A stretch of 64,000 nt of DNA from assembly GCA_019359375.1 (NCBI GenBank), contig JAHHHL010000001.1:186001-250000 (forward strand), in the 5' to 3' direction. The notes below the pieces were generated by a model. It was given only the letters and a program-made list of their open reading frames with translations, had not been told where the DNA came from and did not search any database. This DNA comes from Lyngbya sp. HA4199-MV5. GTDB lineage: Bacteria > Cyanobacteriota > Cyanobacteriia > Leptolyngbyales > Leptolyngbyaceae. The translations under genes and the position numbers were made by a program. This document shows, piece after piece, positions 8,415-62,753 of the stretch (its first letter is position 1; each line of letters opens with the position of its first letter).

Positions 8415-8895
8415 CGAGGCAGGGGGCAGAAGGCAAAGGACGTTGTTAGTTGTAAAGCCTTCGGCATGGCTTCGCTAAGGTTGTTAGTTGTTAGAAGAAG
8501 GCAGAAGGCAGGAGGCAGAGGGCAGAAGGCAAGGGCGTTGTTGGTTGTTAGAAGAAGGCAGAAGGCAGGAGGCAGAGGGCAGAGGGGTGGAAGGCAGAAG
8601 GCAGAAGGGCAAGTCGTTTCGTTATGCTTCAGGATCGTTTCTGACGAGTTTGAAGAAACACTGCTTTCGAGCAGCCAACTGGAAAGAACACGTTAATCTT
8701 GAGGCATGGCAGAAGACGCTGACTGCTTTCGTTTTGGGTGTTGCCACGAAACAAACAGAGTACGAAACCAACAGAAAGAGTTGAACCTCTGGTCTGTTTG
8801 CTCCTGCTACAGCAACACCCTTCTACTGAAGTGGACGCACGGGGTTAAACTTGATGGCGTTCTGCTTCATTCATCGCACAATCAAGGAGAGTGGC
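8415..8895. repeat. Heptamer (GGCAGAR) repeat region, two tandem blocks
   Basis: The intergenic stretch is filled between about 8478 and 8606 by tandem heptamers of the type GGCAGAA/GGCAGAG/GGCAGGA. A larger unit, a GTTGTTAGTTGTTAGAAG leader plus heptamers, occurs twice (from about 8478 and from about 8537). Such heptamer tracts are common in filamentous cyanobacteria. Apparent ORFs across it are translated repeat. From about 8640 to 8880 the sequence is unremarkable and presumably holds the promoter of the lipoprotein gene. Confidence 0.8.
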
Positions 8896-12970: not shown

Positions 12971-13247
12971 GAGGGGGAGAAATGGGGCAGGGGAGGCAGG
13001 GGGAGCAGAGGGGCAGGGGGAGCAGAAGAAGGCATGACTTTAAGTTGGACTGAGCGATCAATGGTCAGCTTTCAGCCTTAAACCTTAAACCTTTAGCCTT
13101 TAGCGTTTAGGCGGTCAGCAGTCAGCCGACCCTACGGGAAGCAAGCTACAGTTTTTAGCCTTTAGCCTTTAGCCTTTCGCTTTGACCTACTCCCCACTCC
13201 CTACTCCCCATTCATTCACTAACAACTAACAACCAAAAACTAACAAC
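12971..13247. repeat. Repeat-filled spacer between flv3 and flv1
   Basis: From 12971 to about 13034 lies a G-rich heptamer-type tract (GGGGCAGGGGAGGCAGGGGG). Next come TTTAGCC-type repeats and, at 13128-13151, the dispersed motif CCCTACGGGAAGCAAGCTAC. The end (about 13191-13246) is ACTCCCC/AACAACTAACAACC repeats. If flv3 and flv1 are co-transcribed, the mRNA runs through all of this. Confidence 0.75.
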
Positions 13248-18140: not shown

Positions 18141-18464
18141 CAGGGGCAGTGAGGGCGCGATCGGGGCCATCAATGTCGCACGCCTAAGCAAGTCTGCGAG
18201 CTAGAGGGAATCGATCGCGCGTGCGATCCACGGTGGTGGCTGGCATGGTGCTTAGAAATAGGGGGTATAGCAATTGAAAGGTTGATTAGGACACATAGCA
18301 CTGCTCAAAGCATTGATAACCGTAGTTTTGCCTTCTGCCTTCTGCCCTCTGCCTCCTGCCTTTTGCTATATGATGCCGATGGGTGCCACGCCCTATTAGC
18401 TTTTCAGCGTTGATCCAGTCTCCTGCCTTCTCTTTCCTCCTGTGCCTTCTATCTTTTCACCCTC
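18141..18464. repeat. Intergenic region with CTTCTGC heptamer tract
   Basis: The gap before glgX contains, at 18331-18360, tandem CCTTCTG/CCCTCTG/CCTCCTG units, the complement of the GGCAGAR heptamers seen elsewhere. No other structure was seen. Confidence 0.7.
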
Positions 18465-26964: not shown

Positions 26965-27034
26965 GGGATGAAGGCAAAGGAGTTGTTGGTTTTTAGTTGT
27001 TAGTTTTTAGAAGGAGTCAGGAACGGCTCATACA

Positions 27035-27164
27035 CTAGGGGCTGTCACAAATTACGATTACATAGGACTTGCAGCAATGGTTTCAGCCTTAGCTTGGTAT
27101 GTTGGGGCGGGCGCGATGATGCTGATACTGCAAGGTTTCAGAGCTAATTGATGACGCGCCCTAG
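27035..27164 (+). mobile_element. MITE copy A (131-bp CTAGGG family)
   Basis: The element starts CTAGGGGCTGTCA and ends TTGATGACGCGCCCTAG, which are inverted repeats of each other. It aligns throughout with copies at 37227-37357 (inverted) and 63520-63651. It has no coding capacity. It lies in the gap 26965-27313, which otherwise holds TTGTTAGTTTTTAG and AACAACTAACAACC repeats. Confidence 0.85.
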
Positions 27165-27313
27165 TAACTTTTCTGGTATGCCCATTTCTGATATGCCTCA
27201 AAGCTTCAGGTCTTTATAACCAACAACTAACAACCAACAACTAACAACCGATTCACCTCCTCACTCCTCACCCTATAATAAGTGTCTTCTCAAATGAGGG
27301 TGTCTCATTGGCA

Positions 27314-27808
27314 ATGCCTGTAGAAGTAATTGCGGTGAATGCGGATGATTGGTGGGGCTTGACGTGGCGGTTGCTGTTAGCGTCTCTTTCTGGCGGGGCG
27401 ATCGGCTTGAATCGGCAAATAGCGGGTAAAGCAGGTGGCTTGAGAACGCATATGCTGGTGAGTTTGGGATCAGCCCTGTTTGTCATGATGACGACGATCG
27501 GCATCACCGTTCATGCCGACGCAACCAGTCGTGCAATCCAGGGCGTGGCAACCGGGGTTGGCTTTTTAGGGGCGGGTGAAATTGTGCATCAATCGCGTGC
27601 CAAGTCAGGTAAACCGGGCGTAAAAGGTTTAACCTCTGCTGCTGCTATTTGGGTGACGGCGGCTCTGGGCATGATTGCGAGCTTGGGTTTATGGCAAACT
27701 AGCCTCATTGGCACACTCTTGACCTTATTAATTTTGAGTGGAGCAAAGTGGCTGGAACGATTTGTACCCGTGATCCATGAGGGAAGAGGGGAGCGGGGGG
27801 AGGAGTGA
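27314..27808 (+). CDS. MgtC/SapB family membrane protein
   Basis: The 164-residue protein has four to five membrane helices, with the MgtC signature region at about residues 20-50: SLSGGAIGLNRQIAGKAGG followed by LRTHMLVSLGSALF. MgtC-type proteins are linked to growth at low Mg2+ and to control of membrane ATPases; exact function is unsettled. The C-terminal tail (EGRGERGEE) is encoded by G-rich repeat DNA, so the native end may have been replaced or extended by a repeat. The ATG at 27314 was preferred over TTG at 27308. It is a single gene between repeat-rich spacers. Confidence 0.88.
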   Translation: MPVEVIAVNADDWWGLTWRLLLASLSGGAIGLNRQIAGKAGGLRTHMLVSLGSALFVMMTTIGITVHADATSRAIQGVATGVGFLGAGEIVHQSRAKSGKPGVKGLTSAAAIWVTAALGMIASLGLWQTSLIGTLLTLLILSGAKWLERFVPVIHEGRGERGEE

Positions 27809-28079
27809 GGGGAAGGGGGAGAGGGTTAAGAGTTAAGAATTAAGAGTTCAGAGTTAAATAGCGGTCAGCGGTCAGTCTTCAGTCAACCCTGCGGGAAGCA
27901 AGCTACAGCGATCAGTTTGCAGTTTCCAGCCTTCGGTCATGCTACGCCTGTCCACTGGTGACTGTTTCACTGAATCACTGGCGACTGTTAAGACCTTTTA
28001 GCCCTCTGCCTTCTGCCTCCCCTACTCCCCTTGCCTCCCCTGCTCCCCTTGCCTCCCCTCTCACCGCCTACATCCGCCC
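27809..28079. repeat. Repeat-rich intergenic spacer
   Basis: The spacer contains GAGTTAAGAATTAAGAGTT units, a GCGGTCAGCGGTCAG unit, and the dispersed motif CCCTGCGGGAAGCAAGCTAC (27888-27907; related copies at 13131-13150 and, inverted, near 40011-40037). From 28001 to 28062 lies a CCTCTGC/CCTTCTGC and CTCCCCTTGCC tract. Confidence 0.7.
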
Positions 28080-29720
28080 ATGCTCCGTAAGCCGTTTTCC
28101 TGGAACAACTCAAGCGATGGATCGATCGCCCCCGCATGGATCGATCGCTTCTGGTTGCTGGGGCTTTTGCTAGCAGCAGGGGTATTGTTTGGGTTAGATC
28201 TGGGCACGCTGCCGCTGCGAGATTGGGATGAGGGGACGGTTGCACAGGTAGCACGGGACATCTGGCGATCGCCGTCTGGTTCCTGGGTGTGGTTGCATCC
28301 GACGATCGCGGGTGAACCGTACCTCAACAAGCCGCCTTTGATGCACTGGTTGATGGCGTTGGCGTTTCGGTTGGGGGGCGTGAATGAGTGGATGGCGCGT
28401 TTGCCTGGAGCAAGCCTGACTGCGCTTTCAGTAGCGCTGCTCTATGCGATCGGGCGAGAACTGTTTTCCCGTCGGATTCCTGCCATTTTTGGAGCATTGG
28501 TCTACCTGACGCTGCTGCCTGTGGTGCGGCATGGACGGCTGGCAATGCTGGATGGCGCGGTGCTGTGCTTTTTTCTGCTGCTCGTCCTTTGTCTACTGCG
28601 ATCACGGCGGGATTTGCGCTGGGGATTGGGCGTGGGGCTGGCATTTGGGCTACTGTGCCTGACGAAGGGGATTGTGGCGCTGCTGCTGGGCGCGATCGCG
28701 ATCGCCTTCATTGCCTGGGATACGCCACGGCTGCTCACCTCTATCTATGTCTGGCTGGGAGTGCTGCTGGGGAATGTGCCTGTAGTTGCGTGGTACTGGG
28801 CGCAATGGTTGCACTACGGGCAAGCGTTTGTCAGTACGAGTGTGCTGGGTCAATCGCTTGATCGAGTCGTGGTGTCTGTCGAAGGCAATCGCGGCGCACC
28901 CTGGTACTACCTGCTCGAAATTGTGAAATATAGCCTTCCGTGGCTACTGTTTTTTCCTCAGAGCGTTCGCTTGGCATGGGAAAACCGGAATGTGAGCTGG
29001 GCAAAGCTGGTGCTGGTGTGGGCGGCTGGCTACCTGCTCGTAATTTCGCTGATGAGTACAAAATTGCCCTGGTATGTGCTGCCCGTTTATCCTGCCCTGG
29101 CGCTTGCGGTGGGAGCTTTTTTTGCGGAGCTTTGGCACCCATCCGACCTGGTGGGTTTGCGTCAACCCGATCGCCTCCGCTATCCGATCGCCTGGATCGT
29201 ACTGCTGAGTCTGGTGGCGATCGCGGGCTGGATCGGGTGTTTCTACTTCAGTCCCGTTGGTGGTTATTCTCAAGCAGGCTTACCAATCATTCTGGGTGCG
29301 ATCGCCCTTACGCTGACGGTGGCGATCGTGCTGCTGTGGCGGCGCGATTCACAGTTTTTGCTGGTGCTGCTGTGGGGTATGTATGTATCGCTGGCGCTCT
29401 TTGTCGCGTCACCCTACTGGATCTGGGAACTGGATGAGTCCTACCCGGTGAAGCCTGTAGCGGCTCTGGTACGACAGCACACGCCGCCGGATGCCACGAT
29501 CTGGACACTGTATCCCTATAGTCGCCCGTCGCTCAACTTCTACAGCGATCGGCGCATAGTGCAAACGACCGCTGAGACTGCCATCACGGACTATTGGCAG
29601 CGTGATCCTTATCCCTATGTGCTGGTCGAACAGGTGCTGGCGGCAAAGCTTGCCCTACCGTCTGTGCAACCATTAGGCAGTGCAGACGGGTTTGTGTTGC
29701 TGACACGCCAAAAACCATAG
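28080..29720 (+). CDS. GT39-family membrane glycosyltransferase (ArnT-like), copy 1
   Basis: The 546-residue protein is an integral membrane transferase that uses a polyprenyl-phosphate sugar donor to modify lipid or protein on the outer face of the membrane. It has about ten to twelve helices. The first extracytoplasmic loop carries the acidic motif RDWDEG (D48, D50, E51), typical of the PMT/ArnT superfamily. A KPPLMHW motif follows near 93. The C-terminal soluble part holds PYSRPSLNFYSDRR. The acceptor is unknown. It is followed 76 bp later by a second GT39 gene on the same strand. Confidence 0.87.
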   Translation: MLRKPFSWNNSSDGSIAPAWIDRFWLLGLLLAAGVLFGLDLGTLPLRDWDEGTVAQVARDIWRSPSGSWVWLHPTIAGEPYLNKPPLMHWLMALAFRLGGVNEWMARLPGASLTALSVALLYAIGRELFSRRIPAIFGALVYLTLLPVVRHGRLAMLDGAVLCFFLLLVLCLLRSRRDLRWGLGVGLAFGLLCLTKGIVALLLGAIAIAFIAWDTPRLLTSIYVWLGVLLGNVPVVAWYWAQWLHYGQAFVSTSVLGQSLDRVVVSVEGNRGAPWYYLLEIVKYSLPWLLFFPQSVRLAWENRNVSWAKLVLVWAAGYLLVISLMSTKLPWYVLPVYPALALAVGAFFAELWHPSDLVGLRQPDRLRYPIAWIVLLSLVAIAGWIGCFYFSPVGGYSQAGLPIILGAIALTLTVAIVLLWRRDSQFLLVLLWGMYVSLALFVASPYWIWELDESYPVKPVAALVRQHTPPDATIWTLYPYSRPSLNFYSDRRIVQTTAETAITDYWQRDPYPYVLVEQVLAAKLALPSVQPLGSADGFVLLTRQKP

Positions 29721-29796
29721 CTGGAGAAAACCCACCTGCACCTATTTCCCGCTACAGTGAGTCTGAATAACGCGAGATGTTGAACAGAAGAAACGC

Positions 29797-31737
29797 ATGG
29801 GTGTGAAATTTGCGCGTGTCATGCAGCCGCTACAGGACTATGGCAAGCGGTATCCAGCAATGGTGAGGGCGCTTCCCTGGCTCTGGCTACTGGCGATCGC
29901 GGTGATTACACTCTTCTGGCATGTGGGCAGCATTGGGCTGATTGATGAAACCGAACCCCTGTTTGTCGAAGCCTCGCGCCAGATGTGGTTGACGGGCGAT
30001 TGGGTGACTCCCGCCTTTGATGGCGAACCCCGATTTGACAAGCCGCCTCTTATCTACTGGTTGATGGTGATGGCGTTTCAAGTGTTCGGTGTCAATGAGT
30101 TTGCGGCACGGTTGCCATCGGTACTTGCGGCAGTTGCGATCGTTTTCTTGTGCTTTTACACGCTGCAATGGTGTGGGGTAGAGGGGGAAAGGCAGGAGGC
30201 AGGGAGCGGAAGGCAGAGGGCAGAGGGCAGAGGGCAGAAGGTGGAGAGAGCAGAGGAGGCAGGGGGGGCAACCGCAGAGGCGCAGAGACGCGGAGAGGTA
30301 GAACATTCTGAGTTTGGTGCTTCAACTGACCCTATACCCCATACCCCACACCCTACACCCTACACTCCTCACTCCTCACTCCTCACCCCTCTCACTCCCT
30401 GGATCGGCGCAACGATGCTCCTCCTCAACCCCAACACCTTCTTCTGGGGACGGACGGGCTATGCGGATATGCTGCTGACGGCGTGTATGGGTGGGACGCT
30501 GTTGGCGTTCTTTCTGGGATATGCTCAGCCCGATCACCCGATCAGTCAAAAGCGCTGGTATTTTGCGTTTTATGGGTTGATGGCGCTGGCGGTGCTAACG
30601 AAGGGACCGATCGGCATTCTCTTGCCAGGGCTGATTATTGGCGGCTTTTTGCTGTACGTGGGCAACGCGAAAGTGGTGCTGCGAGAAATGCGATTGCTGC
30701 GGGGTGCCTTAGTGGTGCTGGTCATTGCGCTGCCGTGGTACGTGCTGGTGACGCTGGCAAACGGGAGAGCGTTTATCGATTCGTTCTTTGGCTACCACAA
30801 CGTTGAGCGGTTTACCCAGGTGGTGAATCGTCATGCAGGGCCGTGGTATTTTCACATCGTGGTGATTCTGGTGGGTTTTTTACCCTGGTCAGCCTACCTG
30901 CCAGCGGCGATCGCCCACATCAAACCGCTGCAACGTCGCTATTGGCAGGATCAGCCCCGGTTCCAGCAGCTTGGTCTGTTTGCCCTGGTCTGGTTTGTCG
31001 TGATTTTGGGCTTTTTTACGATCGCCACCACAAAATACTTCAGCTATACGTTGCCGCTGATGCCTGCCGCTGCCATTCTGGTGGCGCTGCTGTGGACTCA
31101 TTACATCACCCGAACAGATTCTCGCAGACAACCCGGATTCTTGCTTAGCGGCGGGTTTAACATCGTTCTGCTAGTCGCAATGACGGCGGCGATCGTGTAC
31201 TGCCCTCACTGGCTGGGCAATGATCCGTGGATGCCAAATCTGGGGTTGCAGATCCAGGAGGCACAGTTGCCCATTATTGGAGGTGTTCTCTGGGGGATGA
31301 CGACGATCGCAGCGATCGGTTTCTGGCTGTGGCGTAGTCGCTGGCTGTGGTTTGCGAATCTGCTGGGCTTTCTGGCGTTTCTCATCCTGGTAGTTCATCC
31401 GCTGGTGTTGATTGCCGATGTGGAGCGTCAACTTCCCTTGCGGCAACTGGCAGCGGTCGCGGTGCAAACGAAGCAGCCCACGGAAGATCTGCTCATGCTG
31501 GGGTTCAAGAAGCCGAGTCTGGTGTTTTACACCCGCCAGCATGTGACCTATCTCAGTCCGCCTACGAAGGTGATGGATCATCTCCGATCGCAAGCGGGCG
31601 ATCGCACGGGCGCACTCGTCATTGCGGGAGACAAACCACTACAGCAATCTGGCTTACAGCCTGATCAATATCAAGAAATCAGCCGCGCTGGGGTCTATCG
31701 TCTGGTACGAGTGCCCGACCTGCGTAAGCCCTATTAA
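29797..31737 (+). CDS. GT39-family membrane glycosyltransferase (ArnT-like), copy 2, with repeat insertion
   Basis: The 646-residue protein has the same fold as its upstream neighbour: the acidic motif LIDETEP (D50, E51), KPPLIYWL near 91, many membrane helices, and a C-terminal KPSLVFYTRQ segment. It is about 75 residues longer than expected because residues about 128-200 are low complexity (EGERQEAGSGRQRAEGRG, then TPHPTPYTPHSSLLTP). These residues are encoded by heptamer and other dispersed repeats inserted in frame between two membrane helices. The reading frame is intact, so the protein may be functional with an enlarged loop. Confidence 0.87.
   Translation: MGVKFARVMQPLQDYGKRYPAMVRALPWLWLLAIAVITLFWHVGSIGLIDETEPLFVEASRQMWLTGDWVTPAFDGEPRFDKPPLIYWLMVMAFQVFGVNEFAARLPSVLAAVAIVFLCFYTLQWCGVEGERQEAGSGRQRAEGRGQKVERAEEAGGATAEAQRRGEVEHSEFGASTDPIPHTPHPTPYTPHSSLLTPLTPWIGATMLLLNPNTFFWGRTGYADMLLTACMGGTLLAFFLGYAQPDHPISQKRWYFAFYGLMALAVLTKGPIGILLPGLIIGGFLLYVGNAKVVLREMRLLRGALVVLVIALPWYVLVTLANGRAFIDSFFGYHNVERFTQVVNRHAGPWYFHIVVILVGFLPWSAYLPAAIAHIKPLQRRYWQDQPRFQQLGLFALVWFVVILGFFTIATTKYFSYTLPLMPAAAILVALLWTHYITRTDSRRQPGFLLSGGFNIVLLVAMTAAIVYCPHWLGNDPWMPNLGLQIQEAQLPIIGGVLWGMTTIAAIGFWLWRSRWLWFANLLGFLAFLILVVHPLVLIADVERQLPLRQLAAVAVQTKQPTEDLLMLGFKKPSLVFYTRQHVTYLSPPTKVMDHLRSQAGDRTGALVIAGDKPLQQSGLQPDQYQEISRAGVYRLVRVPDLRKPY
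30181..30400. repeat. Repeat block inside a coding sequence
   Basis: GGCAGAG/GGCAGAA heptamers run from 30181 to about 30262. They are followed by an AACCGCAGAGGCGCAGAGAC unit (near 30269), then CCCATACCCCACACCCTACA units and CTCCTCACTCCTCACTCC. All three types also occur in intergenic DNA of this window. The block keeps the frame of the GT39 gene open. Confidence 0.9.
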
Positions 31738-31861
31738 TTTGAACAAGTGGCAGATGAAGCGGGGCAAAGGGGAAAGGGAATACTCATCCGCCCTTTGCCG
31801 TTTCCCCCTTCGCCTTTTACCCGTTCAGATCTGTCGCATACTCTAAACAAATTGGTCTCAC

Positions 31862-34800
31862 TCACTGAATCACAAGGGTGAAGCTGCTGCTAGCGGATGC
31901 TCCTTTGGTATCGGTGGCTTTGACGACGATGCTGAGACTGCCAACCGTGCCGCTGGTGGGTGTGCCGCTAAAGACACCCGTTGATGGGTTAAATCTGAGC
32001 CAACTGGGTAAGCTACGCCCATCGCTGAGGGTGGCGCGGAGCGTGAGCCAATCCAGGTCATCGTTGGCAGCCATATCTTCGTCAAAGAAGGTTGATGCAG
32101 GTATCGTGTAGCGGAATGCTCTTCCGACTGTCGCCCTCTGGTTTGTGAGTGGAGTGGTCACAAGGGGGGCATCGTTAGCATCGCTAATCCTAATCGTAAA
32201 CACCCGTTCTAACACTCCACCTTTACCGTCATCCGTGCGAACCCGCACGCTGTAGGTGGATTTGGCTTCGTAGTTAAACGATCGAGTCGTTCGCAAAGTG
32301 TTCCCCACAATCGTGAAGGCAGCATTATCGGTTGCACCCGTTCCTGAAACCAGGCTGTAGGTGAAGGTATCGCCAACATTGGGGTCAGTGGTGGTGAAGC
32401 TACCGATAATTGCATTGGCAGGTAGATTTTCGGCGATCGTGGCGTTACTCAAGCTCAGACTGGTCGGTGCTTGATTGCTATTACTGCCATTGACGGTCAA
32501 GTTAAAGCCCGTCGCAGTAGAGAGACCCGCGCGATCGGTGGCTTTAATCAGTAAATTCAAGGTGCCGACATTACTACTGGTCGGCGTGCCACTGAAGGTG
32601 AGGCTGGTTGGGTCAAAGCTGAGCCAGGTCGGTAGAGCATTACCATTGGCAAGGGAAGCACTCAGGGTCAGCGCATCGCCTGCATCTGGATCAGAGAAGG
32701 GATTTGCAGGCAGAACGAAACGCAACGCCGTACCAGCCGTCGCTGTTTGATTGGCGATCGCCGTGGTTACAACGGGCTGCTCGTTCACGTCAAGCACATT
32801 GATGGTTAACGCTTTTTCAAAGCTGCCACCTTTACCATCATCAGTACGCACCCGAATCGTGTAAGCGGACTTTGCCTCAAAGTTAAAGGCTTGGCTGGTG
32901 CGAAGCGTATTTGCAGACAGGTCAAAGGACGCGTTATCGTCGCTGCCAGTGCCTGTAACGAACGAGTAGGTAAAGGTATCCCCAGCATCAGGATCAACGG
33001 TACTCAAGGTACCCACGATCGTATTCGCGGCTAAATTTTCAGCGATAGTCGTGCTGCTCACGCTGAGGTCGGTTGGCGCACCGTTTGGCACTACGGGTGA
33101 ATCGGAAACATCGAAAATGGCAACCGTGAGTGCTTTCTCAAAAATACCGCCTCTGCGATCGTCTGTCCGCACCCGAATGCTGTAGCTAGATTTCGTTTCA
33201 AAATCAAAGGTTTGGGTTGGAATCAGCAGCGATCCATCAATGATAAAGGCAGTGTTATCCGCATCCCCTGCTCCAGCAACCAGGGTGTAGGTATGCAGAT
33301 CGGTTGGATCAGGGTCAGTTGTCCCCAGCGTCAGCGCAACCGAGTAAGCGCTCTGAATGGGTGTCACCGGGACGTTTTCTGGAATAAATGTGCGACCCCT
33401 GAACGCGATGTCAGTGGGAACATTGTTGACGGGACTGACCCCACTGCTACCGTCATAGCGAGCCAGAGCAAAACTACCGTTGGCTGACCCTGTGACCACA
33501 ATTCTGCCGTCTGCTTGAATGACGAGCTTAGACGGGCTATCGCTGCTGGTGCCAAAATCTGTTGCGACTTTACCACTGCTGCCAAAGCCCGTATCCAGGC
33601 TGCCGTCACTGTTGTAGCGAATCAGGGCAAAATCACCATTGCTCTGCCCTGTCACCACAATTTTGCCCGTGGCATCGATCGCTACCCCACTACTGGTTGT
33701 GAGACTGGAGCTAATGACACGACCACCCGTCCCAAAGCTCGTATCCAGGCTACCGTTGCTGTTGAAACGGAGTAAGACAAAACTTCTGCCGCTGCCAGAA
33801 CTACCGTTGGCGATCACGACAATCTTGCCATCCGGTGTTACAGCCATCCGGCTTTCAGACGCATCATCAAAGGCAAAACTATTGGGCGGGATAAAGCTGC
33901 TTGTGGTGACAACACCCCCATTGCCGAAGGTAGGATCAAGACCCGCATTCGAGCCATAACGCAAAAGTGTCAGGCTTCTCATCGTATCAATGCCACCACT
34001 CAGTAGATCAACGCGGGAAATGCCAGAAACAAGAATGGTGCCATCGGCTTGCTGTAGGACATCATCAGAAATATCCCGGTAGTTAACATCCGTTATCACC
34101 GCTGCGGGACCTGAGACCGAACCAATTCCAGGTGGAGGGACGTTGCCAAAGCTGGTATCAAAGCTGCCGTTGCTGTTATAGCGAACGAGAAAGAAGTCAC
34201 CCGATCGGCTATAGGTGTTGTCGCCCGCCACCACAATCTTGCCGTCAGCTTGCAGAAAGGCATTACTGACACTGTTGGCATAGCCACCGATCCAGCCTGT
34301 TACTTTGCCACCGTTGCCAAAACTGCTATCCAGGCTGCCATCGCTGTTGTAACGAATGAGGGCATAGTCTGGTGCTGCTCTTTGTACATTGGTGGTGCCA
34401 CCCACAACCACGATTTTGCCATCTGGTTGCACTAAGACAGTGATGCCCCCATCCGCATCATTGCCATAGGGATAACTGGTCGGTGGGGTGTAAATATCGG
34501 TTGTGACTTTGCCACCATTGCCAAAGGTCGTGTCTAGACTGCCATCCAGGTTGTAGCGAGTGAGCGCAAACACGCTACTACTGCTTGAGCCAACCGCACC
34601 AGTGGACAAAATCTTGCCGTCGGGCTGGAGGGTGATGCCGTAACTCGTTGCCGAAGCACCAAAACTGGTTGTCACCTTACCGCCACTACCAAAGCTCGTA
34701 TCCAGATCGCCCGCCGCAAGGACGGCAGGGTATGTCTGCATAACGTCATCCTGAAAGCACACCGCCACATCCATGTCACGGGTCGTTGCATCCAAGTGCC

Positions 34801-35296: not shown

Positions 35297-35529
35297 AAAA
35301 ACCTGCGATCGTGTGTGCTGAGATCAACCCGAGATCAAATCAACATCTAACCGAACTACTTTCTTGAGAGAATTTTGTCACACTCTCCGTAGAATTGCAG
35401 GGATGATTTCGACTGTTTATGAAAACTTTAATGCACACCTGTCAAAGCTTTAATTTCACTCGTCAACACTTCAGATTTTTGGTCTATGGCGGTTTCTAAT
35501 CGAGTGAAGAACAGTTGCGAACAGGTAGA

Positions 35530-35557
35530 AGACAGAAGGCAGAAGGCAGAGGGCAGA
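35530..35557. repeat. Short GGCAGAR heptamer tract
   Basis: Four units of GACAGAAG/GCAGAAG/GCAGAGG lie in the 507-bp gap 35297-35803, just before the 97-bp repeat. The first part of that gap (35300-35470) is AT-rich and presumably contains the promoter of the large surface protein gene. Confidence 0.7.
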
Positions 35558-62043: not shown

Positions 62044-62753
62044 AGTTCTTCTCCAAGGAGACTATAGATGCAATCCCCTGTTTGTCTGCACGTCGATCGT
62101 ATGGGGCTAACCTATCTAATCAACGATCGCAGGGGTCAATCAGGGGAACTTGTTGTGATCTTGATCATGCTCACTCAGATTTAGGTTGCCCTACTGAAGC
62201 CATAACAACACAATCGGTCTAGGGTCTCCACAAAACGTAGCTCGATTGCAGACGACTTCAGAGAAAGGGCGGATGTTTTCGGTAAATGCACTGAGTCAGC
62301 AAACTCAGTTTTATTAAGTCTTATTGATCATGGCATGGGCTATGTCCGTGGATATTCTTCAACGGGGAACGTTACCGAAACTTCAAACAGCTTCCCAATT
62401 TCTTTAAGGAATCAGCGTAAAGTAAGCCGGAAAATACAGCTTTGCTCTAGAAGGTGAGGTGCAGCTAGTGGGGACAGGGTGTAGGGTGTGGGGTGTGGGG
62501 TGTAGAACCAAGACACAGACCAAAGGACAGACGCTAAGATACGGCTGCTTGTAAAGAACCATGTCTAATCCGTCGTCACTGTAAGTCCATAGTTTCATTC
62601 TAGGGAGTTCGATCGTCCGCTTGGGGAGGTGGTACACCCCTCGACAAGATTTGCAACAGTTTGAGCGCGAGATCGATCGGCATTCCAACGTAGAATTTAA
62701 GCATCGCTCCCGTCATGGTGGGCGATCGCTCATGTGTTGAAGAGGCTGATTCT
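62044..62753. repeat. Long intergenic region with GGTGTGG heptamers
   Basis: The 710-base gap includes, at 62469-62508, tandem GTGGGGT/GTAGGGT-type heptamers (AGGGTGTGGGGTGTGGGGT), the complement of the CACACCCTACACCC units inside the GT39 gene. The remainder, AT-rich near 62270-62420, shows no gene; a minus-strand frame at 62404-62688 runs through the repeat and was rejected. It must hold the promoter of the CHAT-protein gene. Confidence 0.6.

Follow-up and report, generated by a model that had tools for sequence, protein, structure and literature searches.

Spacer-type heptamer repeats in frame within a membrane glycosyltransferase gene of Lyngbya sp. HA4199-MV5 and at slots shared with its congeners

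We analyzed a 64,000-nucleotide stretch of the draft genome of Lyngbya sp. HA4199-MV5, called the window below; coordinates without a contig name refer to it. Two glycosyltransferase genes of the same kind follow each other on its forward strand. The upstream gene (28080-29720, +; ORF and Pfam) encodes a protein of 546 aa that matches the full PMT_2 profile in a single stretch. The downstream gene (29797-31737, +; ORF, Pfam, and fold) encodes a PMT/ArnT-type (GT-C) membrane glycosyltransferase of 646 aa and hosts the repeat tract studied here. The host protein passes the Pfam PMT_2 cut-off of 26.1 bits with 38.3 bits and was assigned the ArnT fold (Foldseek E 7.5e-19; TM 0.66 for 5ezm and 0.68 for 5f15), and domain and fold together place it in the PMT/ArnT-type GT-C group. 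Against the NCBIfam ArnT equivalog model it reaches 113.5 bits, with a cut-off of 567. Therefore, the glycosyltransferase identity given in the initial annotation stands, while its label GT39 holds at the superfamily level only and is used here in that sense.

A DETE motif at residues 50-53 (29944-29955, +), recognized from invariant columns, lies in the loop preceding TM2, and its D50 is invariant in both alignments (2/2). From its role in ArnT and PMT we take this motif to mark the presumed catalytic face. The repeat-filled slot was placed after TM2, between TM2 and TM3. Since the DETE loop precedes TM2 and the tract follows it, helix parity and ArnT topology indicate that the tract should lie on the opposite side of the membrane. 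In the AlphaFold (AF2) model, which was built from 42 sequences (pLDDT 86.8), the TM2 helix continues to residue 163 with dropping confidence, and residues 166-192 have a pLDDT below 50.

The slot (30181-30400, +; residues about 129-201), delimited by the ORF, TRF, loop comparison, and AF2, is organized as two heptamer arms around a core. The purine (R) arm (30189-30256, +; TRF) consists of degenerate GGCAGAG/GGCAGAA heptamers and is read as GRQRAEGRGQ. It is followed by a non-tandem core of about 60 bp (about 30266-30328, +), GGGGCAACCGCAGAGG...GAACATTCTGAGTTTGG...TTCAACT, recognized from its copies in spacers of the same genome. The pyrimidine (Y) arm (30329-30391, +; TRF) contains ACCCCAC/ACCCTAC and then CACTCCT heptamers and is read as PHTPHPTPYTPHSSLLTP. 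The period-7 scores of the two arms are 22.5 (purine) and 38.5 (pyrimidine). We counted arrays from a score of 18, a threshold at which Markov shuffles of a 340-kb and a 60-kb contig sample (one shuffle each) gave none. No stop interrupts the ORF (29797-31737, +) across the tract. The ORF, TRF, and the AF2 model thus agree with the earlier description of low-complexity residues added between two membrane helices, about 70 of them at about 128-200.

The heptamer families of the tract recur in spacers of the window. The GGCAGAA family forms two arrays of the AGAAGGC type at 8480-8608 (TRF; coding fraction 0), a TGCCTTC array (its reverse strand) at 18326-18361, and an AGGCAGA array at 35527-35557; the ACACCCT family is represented by AGGGTGT, its reverse strand, at 62476-62503. 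The latter three arrays were found by TRF and hold no called coding base. The spacer at 13065-13183 contains heptamers of other kinds. A further array (27779-27855) crosses the 3' end of the ORF at 27308-27808, which thereby receives the C-terminal tail EGRGERGEE. With the frame open, the arms detected by TRF, and matching arrays in neighboring spacers, the initial view that spacer-type repeats sit in frame inside a glycosyltransferase gene was borne out. A 360-base query comprising the tract and short flanks gave at least 54 matches, itself included, in the genome of 6.91 Mb and 95 contigs; of the 785 first-look candidates, scores were computed for 40.

The initial annotation had expected this segment to be cleanly absent from close relatives. 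The host protein was matched in 57 of 58 genomes, its own included, and we read the GT39 loop in the 30 best loci (own included) and in the best 80 of 553 named loci. Contrary to that expectation, every one of the six congeners has a long loop; five carry other heptamers in it, and G004 carries none. Counted over residues 118-212 of the host protein, the loop measures 95 residues in the window genome (G000), 91 in the sister species G006, 85 in G002 (Tildeniella nuda U140), 84 in G005 (Leptolyngbya ES-bin-22), 68 in G001 (Stenomitos frigidus ULC18), 67 in G004, and 57 in G003 (Leptolyngbya FACHB-321). The heptamers in this slot are of the GGCAGAR type in the window genome, G003, and G005, AACTCAA in G006, GGTCAGC in G002, and GGGGAGA in G001; no array was detected in the slot of G004, although its loop is long. 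Outside the genus, to which Leptolyngbya FACHB-36 (G007) does not belong, the loop has at most 42 residues in 17 of 23 relatives (one locus, L037, ends at a contig end), and loops of 49-68 residues occur in G017 (68), G016 (62), G057 (62), G028 (57), G046 (54), and G051 (49). None of the loops read from distant genera had the same sequence. Because the loop is long in all congeners and its content changes, we regard it as a genus-wide slot and not as a strain-specific gain; judged from these alignments, its origin is no younger than the genus, and its content turns over. Of the proposal that repeat spread creates new protein sequence, the part concerning spacer repeats in frame holds, and the part concerning absence from close relatives found no support as worded.

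The same loops bear on whether the tract could be an assembly or sequencing artefact, an error that the initial annotation had kept in view. Repeat tracts assemble poorly, and the window genome is a 95-contig draft. But the slot is filled in six other assemblies, and its content depends on the species. Since differing repeats at the equivalent slot of other assemblies make an error at the level of the tract unlikely, we give this explanation next to no weight.

Some Microcoleus and Tychonema loops in the GT39 slot are also long, hinting that this loop was colonized outside the genus too. Long slots were seen at L086, L088, L090, L096, and L123 (Microcoleus, Tychonema, and related), several of them with other repeats, namely SSAADFVADVADR units and TPxxPPQGGNEEG units. 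In the best 80 of the 553 named orthologues, surveyed with an array threshold of 13 or more, period-7 arrays were present in the slot of the tract in four, all congeners of the window genome; in ten others they occupy the loop that follows, behind the GYA motif. The latter belong to Nostoc, Desmonostoc, Spirirestis, Hassallia, and Komarekiella. Their heptamers (GGGAGCA, GGGGACT, and CCCAATC) differ from those of the window, and in all four Nostoc-group copies that have a pair of arrays (score at least 10) the purine array precedes the pyrimidine array. The Nostoc heptamers, which lie in a different loop of this protein, represent an independent parallel. The helices between the two loops (196-209, 212-220, and 222-242) should, according to the model, amount to two membrane passes, which would put both loops on the same face. 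One of the 80 orthologues, L140 from Oscillatoria sp. SIO1A7, has its array elsewhere: at the N terminus of the same glycosyltransferase, residues 10-34 of the ORF are encoded by CCCAATT-type heptamers with a score of 50.

Heptamer arrays inside genes are not restricted to this glycosyltransferase. In 1.198 Mb of the window genome, on contigs that all contain a match to the tract and whose array density may therefore be somewhat high, we found 201 arrays. Called genes, 37 in all, account for 62 of them and spacers for 116; the other 23 sit at edges. Gene calls were hexamer-based, and the coding potential is at least 15 on both sides of the array in 33 of the 37 host genes. The other four (C55:18959, C6:12359, C82:146820, and C84:4713) show low coding potential on one flank and are doubtful hosts, but were retained in the count. 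Per kb, coding DNA held 0.064 arrays and spacer DNA 0.508, an 8-fold depletion in coding regions. Arrays within genes amounted to 23 of 40 in G006 (459 kb), 16 of 40 in G002 (300 kb), 13 of 28 in G001 (280 kb), and five of five in G003 (80 kb), with gene-to-spacer density ratios of 0.18-0.29 in G006, G002, and G001. Neither 20 kb of G004 nor 60 kb of G017, from another genus, contained an array. Extrapolated roughly, the window genome would hold 150-250 host genes, a number that may be too high for the reason given above. Two individual loci were conspicuous. A 1925-aa ORF (L187:9893-15667, corresponding to G000:C84:169893-175667) has six separate in-frame heptamer arrays. An ORF with S1 RNA-binding domains (L039:18959-20000, in G000:C55:18959-20203) begins with an extension that derives from repeats and scores negative for coding potential; this is probably a false start and no true insert.

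We then followed nine host genes through the genus: GT39, LysA, PyrC, ChlD, a Clp-family ATPase that stays below the NCBIfam cut-offs, NagA, RsgA, HemW, and a Cu-ATPase with three slots. The eight hosts besides GT39 were chosen for their conserved look and not randomly. For LysA, PyrC, ChlD, and the Clp-family ATPase the search extended to 14 relatives, including eight non-congeneric genomes, in which seven loops were read for LysA, seven for PyrC, seven for ChlD, and eight for Clp; NagA, RsgA, HemW, and the Cu-ATPase were compared within the genus. All eleven slots keep their positions in each congener that yielded the gene. Own genome included, the slot was seen in seven genomes for GT39, LysA, ChlD, RsgA, HemW, and the Cu-ATPase, and in six for PyrC, Clp, and NagA. 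Of the 63 possible gene-by-genome copies, 60 were found, the missing ones being PyrC in G004 and both the Clp paralogue and NagA in G005, and in all 60 a single open frame spans the slot. A fragment resembling the last 92 residues of the HemW host (L318, G000:C80:59775-60050; 79% identity, one TGA) lies at a distance of about 5 kb from that gene and is perhaps a duplication remnant.

The repeats at these shared slots mostly differ between congeners. The ChlD slot contains GGCAGAA and ACCCCAC heptamers in G000 and G006, AACTCAA and CCCACTC in G005, and the GTCAGCG type in G002 and G001. The RsgA slot has an array in two of seven genomes, with GGCAGAA in G000 and GTCAGCG-type heptamers (score 73) in G002, and none in the other five. 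An exception to this turnover is the second Cu-ATPase slot, where most congeners have a similar CACTCCT-type sequence. In G004, the first-branching congener, none of the ten slots compared gave a period-7 signal, although most of its loops are long (the third Cu-ATPase slot, with a short loop of 16, differs). The heptamers may thus have entered loops that were already variable or tolerant. Compared to other genera, the slots are longer within the genus for LysA (27-85 vs 16-25), PyrC (31-52 vs 13-22), and ChlD (43-70 vs 21-34); the ranges overlap for Clp (40-54 vs 27-43), where the copies from outside the genus may be other paralogues. Solved homologues lack the inserts: 47 aa in LysA correspond to five in 1hkv, and 40 in PyrC to seven in 2z00. 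Similarity searches may split insert-bearing proteins, as with LysA and PyrC.

The length of these slots changes within the genus only by multiples of three. Counted as distinct lengths minus one and summed over slots, at least 24 changes occurred in five slots, and all are 3n because all copies are open; if each is taken as one independent event, the chance of this without frame constraint is about (1/3)^24. The flanks have dN/dS values of 0.045-0.109 (15 comparisons against three congeners), which points to strong purifying selection on them at the sequence level. For the slots the values are 0.19-1.22, with an uncertain slot alignment. Among the 62 in-gene arrays the heptamer contains a stop in three on the sense strand and in 22 on the antisense strand. 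The sense strand is the more hydrophilic one in 46 of the 62; among the 39 arrays without a stop on either strand, this is so in 34. As 7 is coprime with the codon, an array passes through the three phases every 21 bases and encodes one and the same 7-residue peptide whichever frame is used. A perfect heptamer array without stops can therefore be read through in all frames, and its total length is all that matters. In spacer arrays half of the frames are open on average, and of 33 slot sequences 20 and 19, respectively, have no stop in the two alternative frames.

A one-unit change nevertheless shifts the frame, and long in-frame runs exist, such as that of RsgA in G002. Slippage by seven bases could thus act as a phase-variation switch that toggles the gene. 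However, none of the 60 gene-by-genome copies is off frame, many arrays are degenerate, and housekeeping enzymes are among the hosts, and we consider such a switch very improbable. A search of orthologue pairs for out-of-frame tracts (86 and 66 queries) found no HSP junction with an array, but the small overlap in genes makes this search weak: eight of 78 pairs hold any array, and six of these eight are the GT39 gene.

It could also be that the tract is absent from the protein, through removal from the mRNA or ribosome skipping, one route by which enzymes as conserved as LysA, PyrC, and ChlD might keep their function despite the interruption. The 60 open copies, the 3n changes, and the stop-free, hydrophilic-biased sense heptamers would be unexpected if the segment were skipped. 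Furthermore, no Rfam family reaches its gathering score within 27000-33000, and the RNA fold of the tract (z +1.27; a fold at least as good was obtained for 179 of 200 shuffles) does not go beyond composition. A structured RNA at the tract was rejected on these grounds, and removal or skipping would surprise us even more than a phase-variation switch.

A copy of the whole module lies in the spacer at C9:2946-3080 (0/135 bases coding; 89% identity over 135 bp), and the core of the tract is 94%, 91%, and 86% identical to the spacer copies on C9, C80, and C82, with 0/129 (C80) and 4/174 (C82) coding bases. To the core in the orthologous slot of G006 it is 85% identical. The G006 slot core, in turn, is 94% identical to a spacer copy in its own genome, 2.2 kb from the slot and with 0/71 bases coding, compared to 86% for the G000 slot. 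The near G006 spacer copy itself is 87% identical to the G000 slot, vs 85% for the G006 slot. For comparison, the flanks of the two GT39 orthologues are 84% identical, and 61% at 4-fold sites. Higher similarity within than between genomes is a mark of concerted evolution, by spacer exchange or re-insertion; here it was assessed on one element in two genomes, with three spacer copies in G000 and one in G006. The copy most similar to the G006 slot core, at G006:C34:31955-32025 (L334, L336), lies in a spacer, on the strand opposite to the slot; it is a possible local donor of that slot.

Across six genomes, paired arrays are in purine-then-pyrimidine order in 21 cases vs three reversed in spacers, and in 23 vs none in genes. 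Since the spacers have this order too, it belongs to the module; selection in genes as its cause was rejected for this reason. We also asked if each slot draws on the repeats of its own genome. In four genomes the affinity of slots to the spacer repeats of their own genome was equaled in 10 of 20,000 permutations (own genome best in 9 of 20), but without G000 this was no longer significant (2190 of 7776 permutations; own best in 6 of 15). As the effect is significant only with G000 included, we do not retain this statement.

These data bear on the strongest competing explanation, that indel-tolerant disordered loops came first and acquired their heptamers by local slippage and drift, without exchange with spacers. 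The mostly long, non-heptameric slots of G004 fit it, as do the long and variable loops of the GT39 protein in some other genera. So do the remaining core copies in G006, whose next-best long matches to its slot core (78-81%) are no closer than the G000 slot. It does not account for a non-tandem core that is also found in spacers, with own-genome spacer copies as the best non-self match of both slots, nor for an array order that is equal in spacers and genes. We therefore hold it to be unlikely, though clearly less so than the other alternatives.

Our preferred reading, at a probability of roughly 0.78, sees in the tract one copy of a module of purine heptamers, core, and pyrimidine heptamers that is dispersed in the genome; this copy would occupy an old, tolerant loop of a working membrane glycosyltransferase and be translated with it. 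Heptamer modules would have entered protein loops before the radiation of the genus or early in it. Copies would have survived where the strand being read has no stops and is mostly hydrophilic and where the overall length is divisible by three. Slippage and exchange with spacer copies, by gene conversion or re-insertion, would keep rewriting the content of the slot. By default, we regard the added loop as a neutral, tolerated disordered linker. A more far-reaching version is that the modules form a frame-neutral coding repeat system, holding standing slots in perhaps 150-250 proteins of this genome and actively overwriting them from spacer copies; we put this forward tentatively, at somewhat less than even odds. 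If it is true, homologues in sister species gain disordered segments by DNA exchange rather than by point mutation.

The origin of new protein segments in bacteria is usually inferred from single old cases, and here one genus provides many parallel ones: it offers cases in conserved enzymes, short sites in many neighboring genera, and possible donors in the same genome. The selective filter on repeat invasion of genes (frame, stops, hydrophilicity, and position in loops) can be tested here, as can the gain of function by tolerated inserts. In the open-licence literature, titles and abstract openings of the papers listed contained nothing on heptamer inserts in cyanobacterial proteins, by which we do not claim absence from print.

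Among known systems, heptamer repeats of filamentous cyanobacteria, the STRRs, were reportedly described by Mazel in 1990. Going by its title, a report by Vioque (1997) concerns STRR heptamers in an RNA gene. According to PMC4692102, STRR heptamers are enriched in non-coding DNA and depleted in coding DNA, and some intragenic heptamers were counted in its genomes, including Nostoc PCC 7120; the repeats are also treated in PMC2670836. Translation at genus-wide slots sets our repeats apart from the portions of these two accounts available to us (PMC4692102, PMC2670836). In line with STRRs as outlined there, TRF and the period-7 scan found degenerate tandem 7-mers in many dispersed copies, and STRRs supply the unit of the module; unlike them, the tract lies in an ORF and 62 of 201 arrays lie in called genes. 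The SDRs of Nostoc punctiforme, said to be covered by Elhai et al. in 2008, are by description a short non-tandem repeat embedded in heptamer arrays, and the core of about 60 bp resembles them in this respect. PMC8619395, in the part available, deals with repeat units of 1-6 bases. The PARCELs of Mollicutes and others, as summarized in an excerpt of PMC2996958, differ from our modules in being amphipathic tandem domains with dyad-symmetric coding DNA, many of them in membrane proteins; going by this description, they share with our modules that repeats form coding modules in many proteins.

The nearest known kind are the Rickettsia palindromic elements (RPEs). The excerpts available describe them as elements of about 150 bp, nearly half of which are inserted in ORFs (PMC10969869), and as in-frame insertions in non-structured protein segments (PMC2996958); both summarize the original work by Ogata et al. 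(2000, 2002), and RPE-like cases are named alongside for Wolbachia and Methanocaldococcus. As in these outlines, small dispersed repeats are found here inserted in frame into conserved genes unrelated to one another, usually where the protein is unstructured; the heptamer families occur both in spacers and in such genes, and the core itself was observed in the GT39 gene and in spacers. RPEs, as portrayed there, have about 150 bp, a conserved peptide, and a palindromic structure, whereas here a degenerate heptamer array of variable length surrounds a core. The ends of the tract are only imperfectly complementary and it lacks a hairpin-forming palindrome; its peptide is not conserved but follows the heptamer family (GRQKAEG, SGQRSAV, TQNSKLK, or PTPHTPH). 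Unlike RPEs as sketched in these sources, the slots followed here are common to the genus, and species often differ in the repeat family that a given slot contains.
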